Of a DNA stretch of 64,000 nt, positions 12,742 through 64,000 are shown one piece after another; positions within the stretch are counted from its first letter, which is position 1, and each line of letters opens with the position of its first letter. The stretch comes from Promethearchaeota archaeon (GTDB taxonomy: Archaea; Asgardarchaeota; Lokiarchaeia; Sigyniarchaeales; SOKP01). The notes beneath the pieces were generated by a model. The model ran no database searches. It was not told the DNA's origin and saw only the letters and a list, made by a program, of their open reading frames with translations. The translations under genes and the position numbers were made by a program. Location: NCBI GenBank assembly GCA_016840165.1, contig JAEOSU010000029.1, forward strand, positions 1 through 64,000, given 5' to 3'.

Positions 12742-13299
12742 ATGTTTAAAACTATAAAGGGGAGACCGTTGAAATTTGTATTTAAAATTACGATAATCGG
12801 AGATGGTGGAGTAGGTAAAACCTCTCTGATTAAAAAATATACACAAGGTACTTTTGAAGATGACTATATCTCCACAATAGGAGCTCAATTTTCTTTATAT
12901 GATCTAAATATTGATGGAGATGAATGTAAACTATACTTCTGGGATATAGCTGGCCAAAAAGAGTTTGAATTTTTACGATCTGATTTTTACGAGGAAAGCA
13001 AAGCCGCTATCATTGTCTATTCTCTTGAAAATAGTGATCTTGGAAAGCAAAGCCTTGAACATGTAATAGATTGGTATAATGATATTAAAAACCATTGCGG
13101 AGATATTCCTGTAGTTATTTTTGCTAACAAGGCAGATTTAGTAAAGGAAGGAAAATCAGAAAATGACTTCATCAAGGATTTACTTGAGAAAGATAAAATA
13201 ATAGATGTATATCGCACTTCTGCAAAAACTGGAAAAATGGTACCTGACGCATTTTACAGAATAATTAAAGAGTTGCACGATAAATACAAGGGTAATTAA
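12742..13299 (+). CDS. Rab/Ras-like small GTPase
   Basis: All five G boxes are intact: G1 GDGGVGKTS (residues 20-28), switch I Thr45 in STIG, G3 WDIAGQ (67-72), G4 NKAD (129-132) and G5 TSAKTG (159-164). The WDIAGQ motif and STIG switch are Ras/Rab-type rather than Arf- or bacterial MglA-type. There is no C-terminal cysteine, so lipid anchoring by prenylation is unlikely. The first nine residues may not be translated, since a TTG at 12769 has the better ribosome-binding site. It is sandwiched between two genes encoding related roadblock/longin-type domains, which are candidate regulators. Confidence 0.95.
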   Translation: MFKTIKGRPLKFVFKITIIGDGGVGKTSLIKKYTQGTFEDDYISTIGAQFSLYDLNIDGDECKLYFWDIAGQKEFEFLRSDFYEESKAAIIVYSLENSDLGKQSLEHVIDWYNDIKNHCGDIPVVIFANKADLVKEGKSENDFIKDLLEKDKIIDVYRTSAKTGKMVPDAFYRIIKELHDKYKGN

Positions 13300-21870: not shown

Positions 21871-21945
21871 TAAATTAAAGATATTTTAACTAAATAAAAA
21901 CTAATAGTGGTTTTAACTTAATTTTAGCAAGGATTGGGATTTTCT

Positions 21946-23574
21946 ATGGTAAAAAAGAAGTTATTTGAAAATTTATTCAATAATTTTCTCAATCAAAATA
22001 CCGAAGTTGAAGCATTAATTGTTTCAGATGAAGAGGGGCTTGTCATTGCAGGGGAAAAACGATTAGATATAGACATCGAAATAGTGTCATTTCTAACTGC
22101 TGTAATTAACCCCATTATTGAAAGAGTGAGAGAAGAATTTTCGTTTAAAAAATTTGGGACTGCAAGTATTGATACAGAAGAACATAGGTTGTTATTTATT
22201 TTAATTAATGAAGCAACTACATTAAGTTTAGTTATGAAAAGTATGGGTTCTATAGATGATATTGCCCCTTATGCTTATTTCCTCGCAGAAAAAACAGCTC
22301 AAATCCTTGATGCTGACGAAACTGAATTAGTAGAAATTGATATTCCCGATTTTAAATTTGCAGGAGGAATATTTGATTCAACTGAACGAATAAAAAATAT
22401 TATATATCAATCTAAAGTAGAACAAGGGGGAGTCTACAGATTTAAATTTATTGTGCTCGGGGATCATGAAGTTGGTAAAACATCAATTATTAGAAGATTT
22501 GTGGAAAATAGCTTTTTAGATAAATATCGAGCTACGATCGGATTAAATATATTATCTCATGATTTTGAAGCATTTGGAAATAAGATTAGTATCATGCTTT
22601 GGGACATCGGAGCTCAAAAATTTTTTAAGCGGTATCGTAAAACATATTATAATGGAGCCCAAGCAGCATTTATTGTATTTGATTTGACAAATAGAGAATC
22701 ATTTAATAATGTAACGTACTGGCATAATGAACTGAAGGAATTTATAGAGTATATAGATTTACCCATTATAATTGTGGGAAACAAAACAGATTTAGCCGAG
22801 CAACGAGTTGTAACCCAAGAAGAAGGCATTCAATTAGCAACAGACTTATCAAAATTATCAGGTCTCGTGGAAAGTACAACTTTATCTGATTATTCTGATC
22901 TTTCTAATCTTTCTGCTTCACAAACAAAAATTTCTTATATTGAAACAAGTGCAAAAACAGGTAACCGCGTCCAAGATGCATTTAATCTGATCTCCTATAA
23001 TTTTATTCTGGTATGTGAGGAGAAGGAACAACAACTGCTAAAAGAAAAAATCTTAGATGAGATTAACTCAATTATAGATATTAATAAAAGTCTTACCCTT
23101 ACTTTTTTAAATAGTTCCGAACTTTGGAATCCAACTTTACGAATTCTCTCTGAAATTGATGGTTTAGGAAAATTATCAGAAATTAAAGATAAAAAGAAAC
23201 AAAAGCAATATGAATATAATAGTGGATTAGTTTTGAAAAGCTTTATCTTTGATTCTTATAAAGTTGTCGATTCTGATGGTGTAGTTTGTATTTTCGATGC
23301 TCGAGAGAGAAAGAGTATAGATGAGAATTGGATAAACATCCTTTCTGATATTATTAATAATTTAAAGAAAAATAAGGTATTATCAGTGGGGATAAGGGTG
23401 TCTGATGAGAAAATTTGGTCGAAATTAATTGAAAGCTTTAAATTAGACGAAGAAGCCGAAGAAAGACTAGTTTCATTGTTATTTTTTCGGATTCAAAACG
23501 ATTCTTTGTTAGATGTTTATGAATTACTCTCTGCTACATTGAACACAATAAAAAATCTTAGTTTTAGCTATTAA
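21946..23574 (+). CDS. Roadblock-type domain fused to a small GTPase, with extra C-terminal domain
   Basis: Residues 1-125 form a roadblock/LC7-like domain (NTEVEALIVSDEEGLVIAGE, helix, IDDIAPYAYFLAEKTAQIL). Residues 165-355 are a Ras/Rab-like GTPase with G1 GDHEVGKTS (172-180), switch TIG, G4 NKTD (279-282) and G5 TSAKTG. Two oddities: the G3 box reads WDIGAQ, so the usual DxxG glycine is replaced by Ala and shifted by one, and an insert of roughly 30 Ser/Leu-rich residues lies between G4 and G5. The last 170 residues look like another longin/roadblock-fold unit (LKSFIFDSYKVVDSDGVVCI). The ATG at 21946 is preferred over TTG 21934. Confidence 0.85.
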   Translation: MVKKKLFENLFNNFLNQNTEVEALIVSDEEGLVIAGEKRLDIDIEIVSFLTAVINPIIERVREEFSFKKFGTASIDTEEHRLLFILINEATTLSLVMKSMGSIDDIAPYAYFLAEKTAQILDADETELVEIDIPDFKFAGGIFDSTERIKNIIYQSKVEQGGVYRFKFIVLGDHEVGKTSIIRRFVENSFLDKYRATIGLNILSHDFEAFGNKISIMLWDIGAQKFFKRYRKTYYNGAQAAFIVFDLTNRESFNNVTYWHNELKEFIEYIDLPIIIVGNKTDLAEQRVVTQEEGIQLATDLSKLSGLVESTTLSDYSDLSNLSASQTKISYIETSAKTGNRVQDAFNLISYNFILVCEEKEQQLLKEKILDEINSIIDINKSLTLTFLNSSELWNPTLRILSEIDGLGKLSEIKDKKKQKQYEYNSGLVLKSFIFDSYKVVDSDGVVCIFDARERKSIDENWINILSDIINNLKKNKVLSVGIRVSDEKIWSKLIESFKLDEEAEERLVSLLFFRIQNDSLLDVYELLSATLNTIKNLSFSY

Positions 23575-57069: not shown

Positions 57070-57822
57070 ATGAAGATTCATTCTTTATTCATTCTAAACA
57101 AAACTGGCGCTTGTATCTACAGTAGAAATTTCACAGAAGATTTTAGAAATATCGAACCTAACTTGATTACGCCTTTTTTTTCAGCAATTTTCTCATTTTC
57201 AGAAAACGTAATCTCACAAAAGACACCGGAGGTATTGGAAATGGGAGGATTTCGATTTGTCTTTCAAATAAAGGAAGAATTTATTTATACGATATTATCA
57301 GATTCTAGTGTAAGCTTGCTTTTTATAAAATCACGTTTGAAAACTATTACTAAGGAATTCGAAAATTTTTTGGAACAAAATGCAATTGAAGATTATGAAA
57401 TAGTTCAGAACGAAGAATTTGATGAAAAAATAGACGGAATTATCACGGGGGATGATATCATCACCAATAGTAAAGTTCTTTATAAAAAAATCATAGATCT
57501 TATTAAAAAACTAGTTTATGAAAATGAAATTTTAGGAGCTGCTTTATTTGCTATTAATGGAAAGGTTATCTATACCTCTCTTCCACAAAATATACTATTA
57601 TCCTCTATCAAAGAATTGGAAATTCGTTTTATGGTGGCTAATGAGTTTGATGAGACCTTCTATAGTCTAGAAAACGATCAAAGAGTTTTTTCTAAGCGTA
57701 TTAGAATTCCGTGGAAACTAGAACCCCTAATAATTGTAGTTCTATTTGACTCTGGTGTACCTACTGGTATGGCTGAAGTAAACTTAGATAAAATAGTTAA
57801 AAATATTGAAAATATTATCTAA
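57070..57822 (+). CDS. Two-domain longin/roadblock-like protein
   Basis: The N-terminus starts like a longin domain (MKIHSLFILNKTGACIYSRN), then a helix (LITPFFSAIFSFSENVI) and a sheet (FRFVFQIKEEFIYTILSD). The C-terminal half (ILGAALFAINGKVIYTSLP...ELEIRFMVANE...LIIVVLFD) repeats the pattern. Such proteins bind small GTPases or form trafficking adaptors in eukaryotes. It overlaps no promoter of the following flavoprotein but lies only 62 bp before it, on the same strand, so co-transcription is likely. Confidence 0.65.
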   Translation: MKIHSLFILNKTGACIYSRNFTEDFRNIEPNLITPFFSAIFSFSENVISQKTPEVLEMGGFRFVFQIKEEFIYTILSDSSVSLLFIKSRLKTITKEFENFLEQNAIEDYEIVQNEEFDEKIDGIITGDDIITNSKVLYKKIIDLIKKLVYENEILGAALFAINGKVIYTSLPQNILLSSIKELEIRFMVANEFDETFYSLENDQRVFSKRIRIPWKLEPLIIVVLFDSGVPTGMAEVNLDKIVKNIENII

Positions 57823-57883
57823 TGAACTCAATTTTTCAATAAAACCAAAATTTTTTTACTGCTTAATATTTACATTCATACTT

Positions 57884-59152
57884 ATGTATGATATTATTGT
57901 AATCGGTGCGGGTATTTCTGGAACTTCTTTTGCTTATAAAAGTTCTAAATTTGCAAATACACTGCTCATTGAGGCACAAGACTATAATACCCAAATTCCT
58001 GAACGAACAAATATTTATGCTGAGCATAATAAACCATTTATCGAAGAGTTGTTTTGGAATGATCGTGAAATATTTCCCCGCGATTTTATTCAGCTTAATT
58101 ATAAAAGCGAACAAAATGATGGTCTTCTACATTCAAAAGAATTTGGAGCTCCTTTAGGTAAAATTTGTCATACTGAAATCTTTTTGAAAAAGTTAATCAA
58201 TCGCTTTAAAGATAATGATGGAGAGACTAAATTTAATGAAACAGTTTCTAAAATTAACCATCATCAAGATTTTATTGAGCTAATTACAAACAAAGGGGAA
58301 ACTATCAAAGCTAAAACACTTATACTTGCGACAGGTTCCCGTGGATTTGAACTGCAAAAATCTTTTGGGTTTGAAACACCTGATTCTTTTAAGGGAATAT
58401 ATTTGAATACCTTTGCTGATGAGGATCTTCTCGATCAAAACTTCACTTTTCAGTATATGTTTCATTTAAATCCAAATATAAGTATGAATGGGCCTTTCTT
58501 CTTCAATATTGGAAAAGGAAGACTTTCTGCTGGTTTTCTTGGTAATTTAGAGTCTCCCAGTCAATTAAAAGATAAGCTCCAAAGAATATTACAGAATTAT
58601 AATAAAATTCAAGATTTTATTAAAGGAATTACCTGGGATTTAAACCAGGTTGTTGTAGGTGACATTTCAAAACATCCAATTAAGAACATGTCAAAGGACA
58701 GAGTGCTGGTATTAGGAGAAGCTGCAGGCTTAGTTACTTCATTTTTCTACGAAGGAATGTTATGTGGTTTAGCAAGTGCCGATATCGCTTCAAAAGTAAT
58801 CCAATCGCTCCTAAATAATGGTAGTAATTTTTCTAAGGCAGAGTTAAACAACTACGATCGCGAAGTCTCAAAATTACTCTTAGAAAAATATTTTAGAAAT
58901 GGGAATGCATGTGAATACCTTTTTTATAAGACCAATGCGAGCACCAGTAAGACCATTTGGGACGCATACACCGATATGTTATTAAAAAATAAAACAGTGA
59001 GACAGTTCGTATATGATGTTCTTTTAATTCAAGATTTCACGCAATATAATACGGATAACGATCGATGGGTCGGAGAGAAATTGTTTGGCAACTTACCAAT
59101 TATTTCTAAAGCTACACTATGGCCTCGCTTTCTCAAGGCAATGAGTTTTTAG
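57884..59152 (+). CDS. FAD-dependent oxidoreductase, geranylgeranyl-reductase-like
   Basis: MYDIIVIGAGISGTSFAYKS opens with the Rossmann dinucleotide motif, so ATG 57884 is the likely start (an upstream ATG at 57806 adds 26 residues overlapping the previous gene). The second FAD site is RVLVLGEAAGLVTSFFYEG, ending in the GLASADIASK motif, as in archaeal geranylgeranyl reductases and other FixC/lycopene-cyclase-like flavoproteins. These reduce the double bonds of archaeal lipids or related isoprenoids. The substrate assignment is tentative. A UbiA prenyltransferase is coded 14 kb away. Confidence 0.75.
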   Translation: MYDIIVIGAGISGTSFAYKSSKFANTLLIEAQDYNTQIPERTNIYAEHNKPFIEELFWNDREIFPRDFIQLNYKSEQNDGLLHSKEFGAPLGKICHTEIFLKKLINRFKDNDGETKFNETVSKINHHQDFIELITNKGETIKAKTLILATGSRGFELQKSFGFETPDSFKGIYLNTFADEDLLDQNFTFQYMFHLNPNISMNGPFFFNIGKGRLSAGFLGNLESPSQLKDKLQRILQNYNKIQDFIKGITWDLNQVVVGDISKHPIKNMSKDRVLVLGEAAGLVTSFFYEGMLCGLASADIASKVIQSLLNNGSNFSKAELNNYDREVSKLLLEKYFRNGNACEYLFYKTNASTSKTIWDAYTDMLLKNKTVRQFVYDVLLIQDFTQYNTDNDRWVGEKLFGNLPIISKATLWPRFLKAMSF

Positions 59153-59427
59153 ATTTAAAAATATTTTCTTTTGATCATTTTCTTCTTTGTTAAATAATTA
59201 GATCCACATTATTTGTGTGCAAAAAATTGTGCAATTATATTTTTTGGTAAAAAAATAATGTTATGATGTAACAAAACAATTAAAAAAAAAATTGATTTTT
59301 AAACGAAAAACTTCTCCAGATTTGTATATACAACCAGAGCTATATAATAAATATCTAATAACAGGAAAAAAACATTATTTTTAGCTCTTAAAGTAAAAAT
59401 TAAAATCAAAAAGTAGGTTTATTATTT

Positions 59428-59922
59428 ATGGCTTCAGAATATGCAATCCTCGCAAAACTGGGCGGGTTCGTTGGAAGTAATCCTGAAATCGTAAGTTCCT
59501 ATCCTCCTTACACTGCTGTAGGGAACGAAACAGAAATACTGAACTCATGTTTTCCACTTGGTGCAAAAGCAGGAAAGTTTTTTGAAGATAGATTTCGTAA
59601 GTATATAGCGTTATCCTATGTTTTTAAAGTGCGAAAAAGCGCAGAAAGAGATGATCTTTTTTCATTTTCCGTCCTTTTACATAAACGTGACAAGGTGGAA
59701 ATATACAAGAAAGTATTAACTGAACTAATAAACATTTTAGAAAGCAATGGACGATTATCTGAGAGTGTGCTTACACAATATCATCAAAAAATTTATGAGG
59801 GTATAAATTCAGAGTCAGATATTTTAATTGAGGATCTACTAATTGATTTTTCGAGAATTTTTAAAGAAGTTAAAGCAAAAGTTCTTAAACAAAAACCACA
59901 ATTAAAAGGGAGTTTTTTCTAA
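59428..59922 (+). CDS. uDENN/longin-like domain protein heading the Arf operon
   Basis: Near the N-terminus PEIVSSYPPYTAVGNETEI, then NSCFPLGAKAG and the strand-rich ALSYVFKVRKSAERDD and FSFSVLLHK resemble the start of eukaryotic uDENN/longin modules (a YPP motif, then FCFPxG, then a strand and an Lxxxxx hairpin). Helices follow (VEIYKKVLTELINILESNG). DENN-type and longin-type modules interact with small GTPases as exchange factors or scaffolds. This is recognised by eye and needs profile comparison. Its stop overlaps the next ATG by 1 bp, so it is coupled to the first membrane protein. An Arf-like GTPase follows the operon. Confidence 0.45.
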   Translation: MASEYAILAKLGGFVGSNPEIVSSYPPYTAVGNETEILNSCFPLGAKAGKFFEDRFRKYIALSYVFKVRKSAERDDLFSFSVLLHKRDKVEIYKKVLTELINILESNGRLSESVLTQYHQKIYEGINSESDILIEDLLIDFSRIFKEVKAKVLKQKPQLKGSFF

Positions 59923-60566
59923 TGGCAGAAGACATATTATTGACAAATTTACAATTCAGTGGATATATTTTAAGTGCTATTATAATACCTTTGGCAACAA
60001 TAATTCTAGGTAGAAAATTATTTAAAGAAAAAGCTATAACAGGATCTTTCAATCACGTTAAGCTAATTACCTTCAGCATTTTTGCTTGTTTCTCAATTAT
60101 GAGTGTGTTAGAGTTGATAGTTGAAATGAGTTGGTTTCCCCTACTCAGCGAAATCTTTGGCTTTAATATTAATAGCGTCAATCTTTATTCAATATTAATT
60201 GGTACCATGGTATCATTAGGTCTTACCTTGGTTTTCTATGCAAATCGATGGGAAATGTTCTATTATACTGCACTTTTTTTTTTTGGTGGAATGGTAATCT
60301 TCTATTATTTTACTGGATTTGATGCTTGGCTTGAAAGTTATATACACTTCGCAGGTCTCTGTAGTTTAGTTTTTATGTATATCACTAGTTTTCGTATTAA
60401 AGATAACGGAGCACTGGGATTGGCAATCTTTTATACACTAGTATTTAGTGTATTAATATGGGGTATGCCCTATTTTACTCAAATTATAATTCTTTCATAT
60501 AATGCATTCCTTCTTATGTTTTCATTTGGACTCTTCAAACCTTTTAAACAGGAGGTAGCAGAGTAA
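59922..60566 (+). CDS. Seven-helix membrane protein A of the Arf-linked operon
   Basis: The 214-aa protein has about seven hydrophobic helices (for example FSGYILSAIIIPLATIILGRK, VNLYSILIGTMVSLGLTLVF and IIILSYNAFLLMFSFGLF). No catalytic or transport motif stands out; the fold may be like small 7TM sensor domains. The ATG overlaps the stop of the uDENN/longin-like gene (TAATG), and its own stop is 1 bp from the next ATG. The tight spacing strongly suggests coordinated production of the three proteins. Confidence 0.7.
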   Translation: MAEDILLTNLQFSGYILSAIIIPLATIILGRKLFKEKAITGSFNHVKLITFSIFACFSIMSVLELIVEMSWFPLLSEIFGFNINSVNLYSILIGTMVSLGLTLVFYANRWEMFYYTALFFFGGMVIFYYFTGFDAWLESYIHFAGLCSLVFMYITSFRIKDNGALGLAIFYTLVFSVLIWGMPYFTQIIILSYNAFLLMFSFGLFKPFKQEVAE

Positions 60567-60567
60567 A

Positions 60568-61218
60568 ATGTCAAATTTAGCATATTCTATATGTGAAATA
60601 ATAATTATCATATTTTGTGTCTTGACTCTTTTCCCAATTATTCAATCTTGGCGAGACACTAAGAATAGGATGTATATAGCTGTTTTTACTTTGACACTTG
60701 GAATTATTGGTTATTCGATAGCTAATTTACTAACATATTTATTTGAAATTGACACTACTGCATACTTGATTGGAGGACTTCGATTTGGCTATATCCTTGG
60801 ATATATGCTGGCTACAATTCAGTTCGAATTTATGCTTTACCTAAGGCGACTCATTAAATTATATACTCTACCATTTATAATTGCATTTTATTTGATGTTA
60901 GGAAATATTTTAGTGATTAATAGTATTCCTTTCATTATATACCTAGCATTTATTACTTTTGTCCCAGCTTATATCCTTTTAAGAGATGGAAAAAGAAAAC
61001 ATAATGGATTAGCGTTCGGTATGGGAATGCTTTTTCTGCTATGGGGTATTGGACAAATGTTTCCAATAACCATTGTGATTGCACTATTTCGAACTGTAGC
61101 TGTTTTCTCTTTCTTCTTAGGTACGCGTGGATTTTACGAAAAATACATCTTCCCACGGCAAGAAGAAGAAGAAAAAATCATGGGAACATGGATCTCTAAG
61201 TTAGTAGTTAAAGATTAA
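60568..61218 (+). CDS. Seven-helix membrane protein B of the Arf-linked operon
   Basis: The 216-aa protein has about seven hydrophobic helices (IIIIFCVLTLFPIIQSW, RLIKLYTLPFIIAFYLMLG, FITFVPAYILL, WGIGQMFPITIVIALF) and ends with a charged tail (RQEEEEKIMGTWISK). It is weakly similar in length and helix layout to protein A and may be a distant paralogue, a possibility not shown by clear identity. No known family is recognised. It is the last gene before a 180-bp gap to the Arf-like fusion. Confidence 0.7.
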   Translation: MSNLAYSICEIIIIIFCVLTLFPIIQSWRDTKNRMYIAVFTLTLGIIGYSIANLLTYLFEIDTTAYLIGGLRFGYILGYMLATIQFEFMLYLRRLIKLYTLPFIIAFYLMLGNILVINSIPFIIYLAFITFVPAYILLRDGKRKHNGLAFGMGMLFLLWGIGQMFPITIVIALFRTVAVFSFFLGTRGFYEKYIFPRQEEEEKIMGTWISKLVVKD

Positions 61219-61398
61219 TCTTATTTTTTCTTATCTCTATTTTTATTTATTATTTTGTTAAATCATCTACTTCTTTTGTGTGCTAAATTAATAATTTGTG
61301 GCAACAGAACAAAAAATGGATAAAAAAGATTATTTTTATAATCCAAATTATACCTTATTTTTAAGATTATAAAATTACGTTTTGAAAAATTATAAATC

Positions 61399-62295
61399 AT
61401 GGCAGTTAAGAGTTTATTACGAAGGATTTTTACCAAAGAAAAGAAGATTGTAATCTGTGGTCTAGATTCAGCAGGCAAAACAACTATGGTATCATTCCTT
61501 CAGAATGGAACCTTCATGGAACACACTCCAACCATGGGAAAAGAGATGACTACCATGGAAATTCAAGGCATAAGGATTAATATTATGGATATGGGAGGGC
61601 AAAAAGATTTCAGAGAGTTATGGACTGGCGAAGCCAATCATGCAGAATGTGTGATATTCATGATCGATGCCTATGCTCGGAAGAGATTTAATGAAGCTCG
61701 AGATGAATTATGGAAATTATCAAATGTTTTAAAAAAAAAACCGTTAGTCGTTCTAGCAAATAAGTATGACCTCCATCCTGTTGCTCAGATTAGTGAGATA
61801 ATTGATGTATTAGAACTTAAAAGATTACCTTCATTCGAAGTTCTACCTATATCATGTAAAACAGGTTATGGGATAGTAAGAGCATTCATGAAAATCTACT
61901 ATAAATTAACTGGAAAGCAACTAACAAGACGCTTAAGTGTTAAAGGAGTGACAGTTTTCGACAAAGCCGGTATTCCACTTACCTCATCCTCAAATCAAGA
62001 TATTTTACAAGGAGGATTATTTACCGCTATCAGCAGTTTTGTACAGGAATCCTTTAATTCAGAACTCAACCAACTAAAGATTGGTAATCATATCATTGTC
62101 TTCAAACGTTCTAAAAACTTATTAGGGTCATTAGTGCTTAGTGATTCAGATAATATTGATCCCCAAGAAGCAGAAGATGGTTTAAGCGAACTTCTTTGTC
62201 ATTTAGAAAATATGTGTCCCGAATTGGGAAGTGATCAATTAGAACCTCAGAAGATAGAATACTTACTCGACCAATATGCTTCAAACTTATTGTAA
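61399..62295 (+). CDS. Arf-like small GTPase fused to a C-terminal longin/roadblock-like domain
   Basis: Arf-type G boxes are seen: G1 GLDSAGKTT (21-29), switch Thr45 in PTMG, G3 DMGGQ (64-68), G4 NKYD (121-124) and G5 SCKTG. The GLDxAGKTT and DxGGQ forms are Arf/Arl-specific. Unlike Arf, Gly2 is absent (MAVKSL), so N-myristoylation is unlikely. Residues 180-298 form a longin/roadblock-like domain (KGVTVFDKAGIPLTSSS, GLFTAISSFVQESF, NHIIVFKRSK, LLGSLVLSDSD). GTPase and putative regulator are thus on one chain. It lies just after the uDENN-like/two-membrane-protein operon. Confidence 0.88.
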   Translation: MAVKSLLRRIFTKEKKIVICGLDSAGKTTMVSFLQNGTFMEHTPTMGKEMTTMEIQGIRINIMDMGGQKDFRELWTGEANHAECVIFMIDAYARKRFNEARDELWKLSNVLKKKPLVVLANKYDLHPVAQISEIIDVLELKRLPSFEVLPISCKTGYGIVRAFMKIYYKLTGKQLTRRLSVKGVTVFDKAGIPLTSSSNQDILQGGLFTAISSFVQESFNSELNQLKIGNHIIVFKRSKNLLGSLVLSDSDNIDPQEAEDGLSELLCHLENMCPELGSDQLEPQKIEYLLDQYASNLL

Positions 62296-62343: not shown

Positions 62344-64000
62344 TTAAAATAAAGAGTTTAATTTATTATCAAAGCTTTTGGAAATATTTTCCTTCATATT
62401 TTCTATACTATCTTTAAATTCACTAATATGCCTATTTAACTCTTGTTCTAACCTTGAATCTAAAGATGTTGATTTTTCTAAGCTCTCAACTGCGGAAAAA
62501 TATTCATTTTTTTCTAAATAGCAATGTCCCAAGAAGAGCCATGCCATAGCGTGGTCAGGTTCGATTTCCGTTACCTTCTTATAGATATCAATCGCTTTAT
62601 TAAGTTGGTTCTTCAACTTATAGGCATTTGCCATATTAAAGAAAGCCTCGGTATAGATAGGCTCAATTTCAATTGCTTTTTCATATGATTCAATAGCTTC
62701 ATCATATTCTTTTTTCTTAGTATAGACCAAACCCATGTGATTCCATGATTTTACATGGTTTTTAGTAAGATCTAAAGCTTTCTTAAATGAAGCTATGGCT
62801 TCATCATATTGCGCTTTATGAGAATTTGCTATTCCGATATAAAAGTAAGCATTGATATGAGTACTGTCGAGCTCAAGCGCTTTTTCACAGTCTCCAATCG
62901 CATGATCGAAATTATTAGTTTCAATTTCCTTTTTCGCTTTATTTATCAATTGGTTTTTATAATTAGTCTTAATGGGTACTTTATCCTTATACTCTGAGCT
63001 CTCGATTAAATCGTTTACCCGTATTGCTTTCTCGAAAAATTCGAAGCTATCTAAATAATTTCGACTATCTGCTAACTGATTTGCTTGTTCTACAATGAGT
63101 TTGATTTCAGAATAGTGAACTTCATCAATAGCTAACTTAATTTTATTCATCTCTTCAAAACGGCGTTGTTCATCAACAATAGTTTTAGCATATTCCATTT
63201 TTTTATCTAGCTTCTCTAATTCTTTTTCAAATTTTTTCTGTTCTTCGACTAGATCTCCTCTCCCAACTAAATCTTTTAATTCTGCTTGATAAATTAAACT
63301 CTTTATCTTGGCTATTTCCTCTTCCATTATTTCATTTAAGTACATCTTATTGGTAATATCCATAGCTTTTGTAAAGATTTCCAACGCTTCATTATAATTT
63401 TTTTGAGTAAGAAATGCTTTTCCTTCGACTAAGATTTCATTTATTTGAGATGAAAAAGCTTTATTAACAGAATCCTTTAATTTGTTTAATTCTTCATTTT
63501 CCTCTTCCCTAATAGGGATTTTCTTTGCAATACTAATCGCAGCATATAATTCATTTACAGCTCCTTCATAGTCTTTTTGCGCCAGTTTCCTTAGAGAATT
63601 GTCTCTTAATAAATCAATTCTGGTTAAACACACTTTTTTAATTAAATTTGAAATATTACTTACTTGGGTTTCTTTCTCCTTAGATTCAGCCATGTTTTCT
63701 GCGATATCTAAAGCTTCAGTAAAATCTCTAATTGCTTGATTCACTATGGTAAGATCTTGTGCATAATATTCTCTGCCAGTTAATTCCTTACCTTTTTCTA
63801 TCAAAGGCTCGATTCGAGACAAATAAACTGGATTTAATGCATCAGCAGAGACACTATTGATGTTTCGCATTACTTTCTCTTTTTGTTCTGATTCAAACAT
63901 TTTCCTAGCAACCTCAAGAGCACTTTCAAACTCTTTTACGGCCTCTTTGAAATTATTTTGTGAATAGAGTGATTTACCTTTTTCTAAGAGTGGTTCAATC
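62344..64000 (-). CDS. TPR-repeat protein (5' truncated by window edge)
   Basis: The last 250 residues contain consecutive 34-residue tetratricopeptide repeats (AYFYIGIANSHKAQYDEAIA, SWNHMGLVYTKKKEYDEAIE, AFFNMANAYKLKNQLNKAID, AWLFLGHCYLEKNEYFSAVE). More diverged helical pairs and a coiled coil occupy the N-terminal part. The frame remains open to base 63999, where a repeat of the IEPLLEKGKSLYS type runs off the window, so the gene starts outside. TPRs form protein-binding scaffolds. Its partner is unknown; it is convergent with the Arf-like fusion gene. Confidence 0.82.
   Translation of the reverse strand, partial: IEPLLEKGKSLYSQNNFKEAVKEFESALEVARKMFESEQKEKVMRNINSVSADALNPVYLSRIEPLIEKGKELTGREYYAQDLTIVNQAIRDFTEALDIAENMAESKEKETQVSNISNLIKKVCLTRIDLLRDNSLRKLAQKDYEGAVNELYAAISIAKKIPIREEENEELNKLKDSVNKAFSSQINEILVEGKAFLTQKNYNEALEIFTKAMDITNKMYLNEIMEEEIAKIKSLIYQAELKDLVGRGDLVEEQKKFEKELEKLDKKMEYAKTIVDEQRRFEEMNKIKLAIDEVHYSEIKLIVEQANQLADSRNYLDSFEFFEKAIRVNDLIESSEYKDKVPIKTNYKNQLINKAKKEIETNNFDHAIGDCEKALELDSTHINAYFYIGIANSHKAQYDEAIASFKKALDLTKNHVKSWNHMGLVYTKKKEYDEAIESYEKAIEIEPIYTEAFFNMANAYKLKNQLNKAIDIYKKVTEIEPDHAMAWLFLGHCYLEKNEYFSAVESLEKSTSLDSRLEQELNRHISEFKDSIENMKENISKSFDNKLNSLF

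Follow-up and report, generated by a model that had tools for sequence, protein, structure and literature searches.

Introduction

Pairs of longin domains that serve ARF proteins as GTPase-activating proteins (GAPs) with an arginine finger are established: in the SMCR8-C9orf72 complex, Arg147 of the SMCR8 longin points into the active site of ARF1, while its longin partner C9orf72 holds the GTPase (PMC8213707). Human NPRL2 supplies the catalytic arginine of GATOR1, Arg78 (Shen et al. 2019, as cited in a passage of PMC8213707), and a section of PMC10933270 presents MglA and MglB as a prokaryotic Ras-like GTPase with a regulator of the roadblock/longin superfamily. Asgard archaeal genomes encode dozens of small GTPases together with longin and roadblock domains, and matches between regulators and GTPases are lacking. 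Whether operons will reveal the targets of the Loki GTPases is named as an outstanding question in a passage of PMC4917890; the GTPases of strain MK-D1, according to part of PMC10933270, do not generally lie in such operons, which makes the matching of regulators difficult. Here we describe a four-gene cassette in a 64,000-nucleotide stretch of DNA from a Promethearchaeota archaeon of the Lokiarchaeia (contig JAEOSU010000029.1, positions 1 to 64,000; hereafter the window, contig C6 of genome G000 in our numbering). The cassette offers an explicit pairing of an Arf-like GTPase with a candidate GAP and membrane partners, recurs in at least three Asgard groups and points to a single key residue, Arg74 of its first protein, P1.

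A four-gene cassette inherited as a unit

The cassette comprises the following features, in whole-window numbering:

59428-59922, + strand: P1, a 164-aa predicted longin/uDENN-fold protein and candidate arginine-finger GAP, with Arg74 in the β4-β5 turn
59922-60566, + strand: P2, a 214-aa seven-transmembrane (7TM) protein, N-out/C-in, paralogue of P3
60568-61218, + strand: P3, a 216-aa 7TM protein, the cytosolic tail of which is amphipathic and conserved (W208-I209)
61399-62295, + strand: Arf-longin fusion, 298 aa
61399-61914, + strand: Arf-like GTPase domain of the fusion, with a Pfam Arf match (7e-35), Arf matches in the PDB and G motifs
61933-62292, + strand: C-terminal longin-type domain of the fusion (LG), with weak longin matches; candidate docking partner of P1

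P1 and P2 overlap by 1 bp at a TAATG junction, P2 and P3 are separated by 1 bp, and the Arf fusion follows on the same strand after an AT-rich gap of 180 bp, an arrangement that a preliminary description of the window had claimed and that the coordinates of the open reading frames (ORFs) confirm. Given the T-rich stretch in this gap, the fusion gene of the window may have its own promoter.

We surveyed 77 genomes with P1, P2, P3 and the Arf fusion as queries; the named relatives of the window's genome are all Lokiarchaeota or Lokiarchaeia metagenome-assembled genomes. P1 was found in 27 genomes, P2 in 23 and P3 in 22, nearly always co-located, and the fusion protein or one of its domains was matched strongly in 30. 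Complete four-gene cassettes number 24, in 20 genomes of the Lokiarchaeal order. The order and strand of P1-P2-P3 are constant in all 24, with junctions mostly between -4 and +2 bp, spacings that suggest coupled translation of the three genes in most loci; longer apparent overlaps or gaps are probably due to start-codon choice or broken frames. The Arf fusion lies 3' of P1-P2-P3, at a distance of 177-278 bp, in the window's genus and its near relatives. In other lineages (G003, G049, G053, G055, G057 and G058) it lies 5' of P1, with a junction of -29 to +46 bp, and in the copy G047:C7 it is divergent. Two copies are present in G002, G024, G047 and G053. This recurrence is far beyond chance, and the four genes form a real unit. 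Conservation of their order in other Asgard genomes, to which the preliminary description had looked as a check of its proposed unit, was thus found: the genes co-occur, are duplicated together and are deleted together.

The cassette is bordered by genes that are conserved in genomes with and without it:

57070-59152, + strand: left flank, outside the unit, encoding a longin-like 250-aa protein and a flavin adenine dinucleotide (FAD) oxidoreductase
62344-63999, - strand: right flank, outside the unit, encoding a tetratricopeptide repeat (TPR) protein

Six genomes of the genus (G001, G010, G012, G013, G014 and G016) have an empty site, where the oxidoreductase gene adjoins the TPR gene with approximately 70-170 bp between the two matches. 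The full locus of G023 and the empty locus of G016 are 96-97% identical on both flanks and differ by one segment of 3,072 bp, which in G023 holds exactly the four cassette genes. Since the empty allele retains the upstream element AATAACAGG, which precedes P1 in the window, a deletion is favoured over an insertion as the origin of the empty site. A search for flanking direct repeats, a sign of transposition, returned only background from AT-rich sequence and, at the G016 junction, a short microhomology of the AAAT type. To account for the full and empty sites on a tree of the neighbouring oxidoreductase, the state must have changed at least four times.

Partial loci were also found. The longin part alone remains in G015 and, shortened, in G011, and G048 has a longin-only gene. 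In G038 (L063:6573-7400), P1 is naturally fused in frame with LG, and the genes for the GTPase and the 7TM proteins are absent. Possible decay is seen as a TAG inside P2 of G006 (L081), a TAA in the P3 match of G022 (L088) and stops in the GTPase of G132:C49 (L214).

Scans for sigma-70 promoters and terminators gave no signal above chance level. A 12-bp perfect palindrome upstream of P1 (TTGTATATACAA, 59322-59333) was set aside, as it is not conserved in the relatives. The longin-like protein of the left flank (57070-57822), present also where the cassette is absent, has weak Sybindin and Fuz_longin matches.

The association in distant Asgard families

Of 228 Asgard genomes, 45 matched a P1 profile, individual genomes carrying as many as seven copies, and the matches include two families outside the order, f19 and f24. 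In 20 loci of these families, P1 is followed by a free Arf-like GTPase (~175-190 aa) and a 7TM protein (~260-350 aa) in abutting or overlapping genes, and the flanks of these operons differ from those of the Loki cassette. Most f19 loci add a flavin-reductase-like protein of 285 aa and a protein of 465-472 aa, the N-terminus of which resembles the LG domain of the Loki fusion (hhalign E 3.3e-5). The association of P1, GTPase and 7TM protein therefore extends beyond the four-gene Loki order, to at least three separate Asgard groups.

When searched with a profile of the linked GTPases, 27 of the 31 GTPase genes that scored above 200 bits (15 genomes) adjoin P1, compared to none of the 12 lower-scoring genes retrieved, a count that is partly circular as the profile was built from P1-linked genes. 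The GTPase tree has one clade (support 100/99) that holds the linked GTPases of f19/f24 plus three unlinked genes, and another (99/99) made up of the Loki fusions. In several f24 loci, P1 stands beside a 7TM gene without a GTPase gene. Arg74 is kept in the P1 proteins with this arrangement at L134, L135, L137, L142, L143 and L145.

P1 is a predicted longin with a conserved arginine

The AlphaFold2 model of P1, calculated with 29 homologues, reached a predicted local distance difference test (pLDDT) score of 89 and a predicted template modelling (pTM) score of 0.82. Its elements follow the longin order (β1-β2-α1-β3-β4-β5-α2), with further helices. In a Foldseek search of the PDB, the best match was yeast Npr2 (8adl_S; E 2.2e-5, query TM-score (TMq) 0.61), matches 1-6 were all entries of SEAC, GATOR1 or KICSTOR-GATOR1, and the Npr2/NPRL2 matches as a group spanned E 2.2e-5 to 6.7e-4 and TMq 0.55-0.61; 8adl_S and 6ces_N were confirmed as Npr2/NPRL2. 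FLCN-FNIP2, Lst4, DENND1A, DENND10 and a Lokiarchaeal longin came later among the matches. With good confidence, at the level of the predicted fold, we assign P1 as a longin/uDENN domain of the NPRL2-FLCN-DENN kind, so that model and nearest folds agree with the uDENN/longin-like protein that the preliminary description had seen in it. Sequence profiles of P1 gave no match in the PDB, and the uDENN profile was matched by one member only, at E 0.2. A Pfam match to Proteasom_PSMB (E 0.0018) was under the cut-off, occurred in 3 of 29 members and was dismissed as chance.

Invariant or nearly invariant residues of P1 include Gly13, Pro43, Gly45, Phe66, Arg74, Asp76, Leu77, Ile122 and Gly161. In the model, Arg74 is placed in the β4-β5 turn, at the start of strand 5, and by motif, with the numbering checked, NPRL2 Arg78 lies in the same turn. 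Arg74 is found in all 45 GTPase-linked P1 proteins of the alignment; of the 22 that are unlinked, 14 have it (Fisher p 5e-5, with kinship ignored). Distant relatives of P1 that have no GTPase neighbour and have lost Arg74 are found at L148, L149, L151, L154, L155, L158, L161 and L163. At the N-terminus of one P1, in G032 (L062:5717-6400), there is a zinc-ribbon-like module of the kind (CPxC ... C[ED]Hx..) also carried on the P3 tail in family f4 (L070:4385-5350, L074:7491-8468 and L069:1779-2855), a further fusion link between cassette proteins.

The Arf-like GTPase and its fused domain

The GTPase domain scores 120 bits against Pfam PF00025 (cut-off 22.3), and its motifs are intact, with GLDSAGKT as G1, TPTMG in switch I, DMGGQ and NKYD; Gln68 of DMGGQ is invariant in the GTPase alignment (A6). 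At the place of the N-terminal amphipathic helix with which Arf proteins enter membranes upon GTP binding, the fusion has only a short basic segment (MAVKSLLRRIF) before the G domain; most f19/f24 members begin with MSFLxxLF.

The C-terminal LG domain comprises approximately 120 aa. A profile search with 31 members returned weak matches to Fuz_longin_1 (Fuz/MON1) and Intu_longin_1 (INTU/CCZ1), with longin matches in up to 8 of the 31, as well as weak matches to LAMTOR5 and MAPKK1_Int; a sequence-profile search of the PDB with LG gave no match. Because strands come first in the order of its elements, and because of the weak Fuz/MON1 and INTU/CCZ1 matches, LG is more likely a longin than a roadblock domain. 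The partner of the Arf domain had been described as longin/roadblock-like; the Arf part of this assignment holds, and of the two names for its partner roadblock is the less likely.

Two more ORFs in the window are GTPase-like (12742-13299 and 21934-23574, with matches to an Arf query at 12781-13284 and 22444-22800). Large GTPase fusions of 520-560 aa, with an N-terminal part that appears roadblock-like by eye, lie near the cassette at L054:16103-17665 (contig C6, ~73.1-74.7 kb) and L079:8475-11742, and in G002 they occur as a tandem pair.

Two paralogous 7TM proteins

P2 and P3 each contain seven hydrophobic segments, as had been claimed for them, and the positive-inside distribution of their loops gives an N-out/C-in topology. 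They are paralogues (profile comparison with hhalign, probability 96.7%, E 3.6e-10). No Pfam match was found for either protein, nor an NCBIfam family for P2, and a sequence-profile search of the PDB with P3 gave no match. The AlphaFold2 model of P3 (pLDDT 86.5) shows seven long helices followed by a C-terminal helix with the conserved Trp208-Ile209, and this tail is conserved across 26 homologues. The best 50 fold matches of P3 in the PDB were all G-protein-coupled receptors (GPCRs), with TMq of 0.32-0.53; the match is not significant (E 0.008 at best, none at 0.001, in a database rich in GPCRs), and the likeness of the modelled fold is a hint only.

The membrane proteins evolve fastest: within the genus, P2 averages 52% identity and P3 50%, against 64% for P1 and 79% for the Arf fusion. 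The GTPases of G000 and G019 share 91% identity, their P2 proteins 50%. Compared with the same relatives, G018 shows a P2 that has diverged much further than its P3, as if P2 had been swapped.

A putative membrane-linked GTPase switch

The reading we favour, in which we place about even confidence, is that the four genes constitute one membrane-linked Arf switch, with P1 as a longin-type GAP and a 7TM pair that anchors and modulates it. The Arf-like domain would cycle between its GTP and GDP forms, and P1 would be the dedicated GAP of this neighbouring domain. P1 would pair with LG, the longin-type domain on the same chain as the GTPase, the two forming a cup around the switch regions, and Arg74 would reach the nucleotide as an arginine finger, as in SMCR8-C9orf72 on human ARF1. 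The paralogous 7TM proteins would hold the complex at the membrane via their cytosolic tails and may tune the switch according to a signal from outside or from the membrane. In favour of this reading we counted the joint inheritance of the four genes and their loss as a block, the operons of P1, GTPase and 7TM protein in f19/f24, the nearness of the P1 fold to Npr2/NPRL2, the presence of Arg74 in all 45 linked P1 proteins, the known longin pairs with ARF GAP activity and the natural P1-LG fusion of G038.

Several observations weigh against this GAP switch. The G038 fusion has neither GTPase nor 7TM genes beside it and could be what is left of a decayed cassette. The sequence similarity of P1 to NPRL2 is not significant (hhalign E 0.057), and the weak hhalign register sets NPRL2 Arg78 one residue off Arg74. 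A basic residue in that turn is also frequent among DENN exchange factors, in their uDENN domains. Arg74 persists in the 14 of 22 unlinked P1 proteins mentioned above, and it seems to be missing from the linked P1 of L214, which has a stop-broken GTPase and stands outside the count of 45. Furthermore, the GTPase trees do not unite the Loki fusions with the f19/f24 GTPases in one clade, and homology of P2/P3 to the 7TM proteins of f19/f24 was looked for and not demonstrated.

The main rival, which we regard as unlikely, reverses the direction of regulation: P1 and the fused longin would form a guanine nucleotide exchange factor (GEF) platform in the style of MON1-CCZ1, TRAPP or DENN, recruited or triggered by the 7TM proteins. 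The weak likeness of LG to the first longins of FUZ/MON1/HPS1 and INTU/CCZ1/HPS4, several of which belong to GEF complexes, and the presence of DENND1A and DENND10 among the fold matches of P1 speak for such a platform, whereas the best fold matches are to Npr2/NPRL2, a GAP subunit, and Arg74 is retained wherever an intact GTPase is linked. A module for trafficking or membrane shaping, in which the Arf switch positions 7TM proteins that are cargo, transporters or lipid enzymes rather than sensors, appears unlikely as well. In its favour, Arf proteins work in membrane traffic, the 7TM families carry no annotation, and one f19 7TM protein has a sub-threshold match to a putative transporter family; however, P2/P3 show no obvious conserved motif of polar, catalytic residues, and their rapid divergence relative to the GTPase fits sensors better than enzymes.

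We consider it quite improbable that the 7TM proteins act as GPCR-like receptors, loading or releasing the Arf switch when a ligand binds, with P1 and the fused longin as a built-in GAP, all from one operon; if true, receptor, switch and switch-off factor of eukaryotic type would be united in a single operon of an Asgard archaeon. Least probable is an accessory or defence-like island whose genes travel together because they are dispensable or selfish, in the absence of a tight biochemical partnership. Patchy presence, repeated loss of the whole unit and fast-evolving membrane proteins would suit such an island, but the same kinds of partner recur in f19/f24 despite different flanks, P1 and LG are found fused, and the GTPase motifs are strictly kept. 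Searches with PADLOC and PHROG yielded no match other than one marginal VakA P-loop match and do not support a defence or phage origin.

Comparison with known systems

The preliminary description had suggested that the unit could be previously undescribed. Its parts are partly known: passages of PMC4917890 and PMC10933270 list Arf-longin fusions for Asgard archaea, and a passage of PMC9834061 lists NPRL2-like longins, the two not being tied together in those passages. In the open-access library searched, we found no report that joins an Arf-longin fusion, an NPRL2-like longin and 7TM genes in one operon. If the favoured GAP switch is correct, dedicated longin-type GAPs for Arf-family proteins, of the C9orf72-SMCR8, GATOR1 and FLCN-FNIP sort, would predate eukaryotes and would already have been tied to 7TM membrane proteins.

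The cassette recalls GPCR-G protein systems in that a 7TM protein with N-out/C-in topology is encoded beside a GTPase, but P2/P3 have no sequence similarity to the receptors, and the GTPase is of the Arf type and lacks the helical insert that G-alpha has. The genes for MglA and MglB are neighbours; unlike the roadblock homodimer of that system, P1 is a longin of the NPRL2 kind with a candidate arginine, and it has 7TM partners. Closer in fold is GATOR1, as Npr2/NPRL2 (together with FLCN and Lst4) provides the best matches to P1 and NPRL2 carries its arginine in the corresponding β4-β5 turn, yet the presumed substrate in the cassette is Arf-like rather than Rag, and the operon contains no DEPDC5 or NPRL3 partner. 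C9orf72-SMCR8, like the cassette, brings together two longin-fold partners, an Arf-family GTPase and an arginine in a longin loop, which is the catalytic finger in the human complex and a candidate in P1. In contrast to that complex, the cassette has two 7TM genes and no WDR41-like subunit, P1 consists of one longin and has no DENN part, and the second longin shares a polypeptide with the GTPase.

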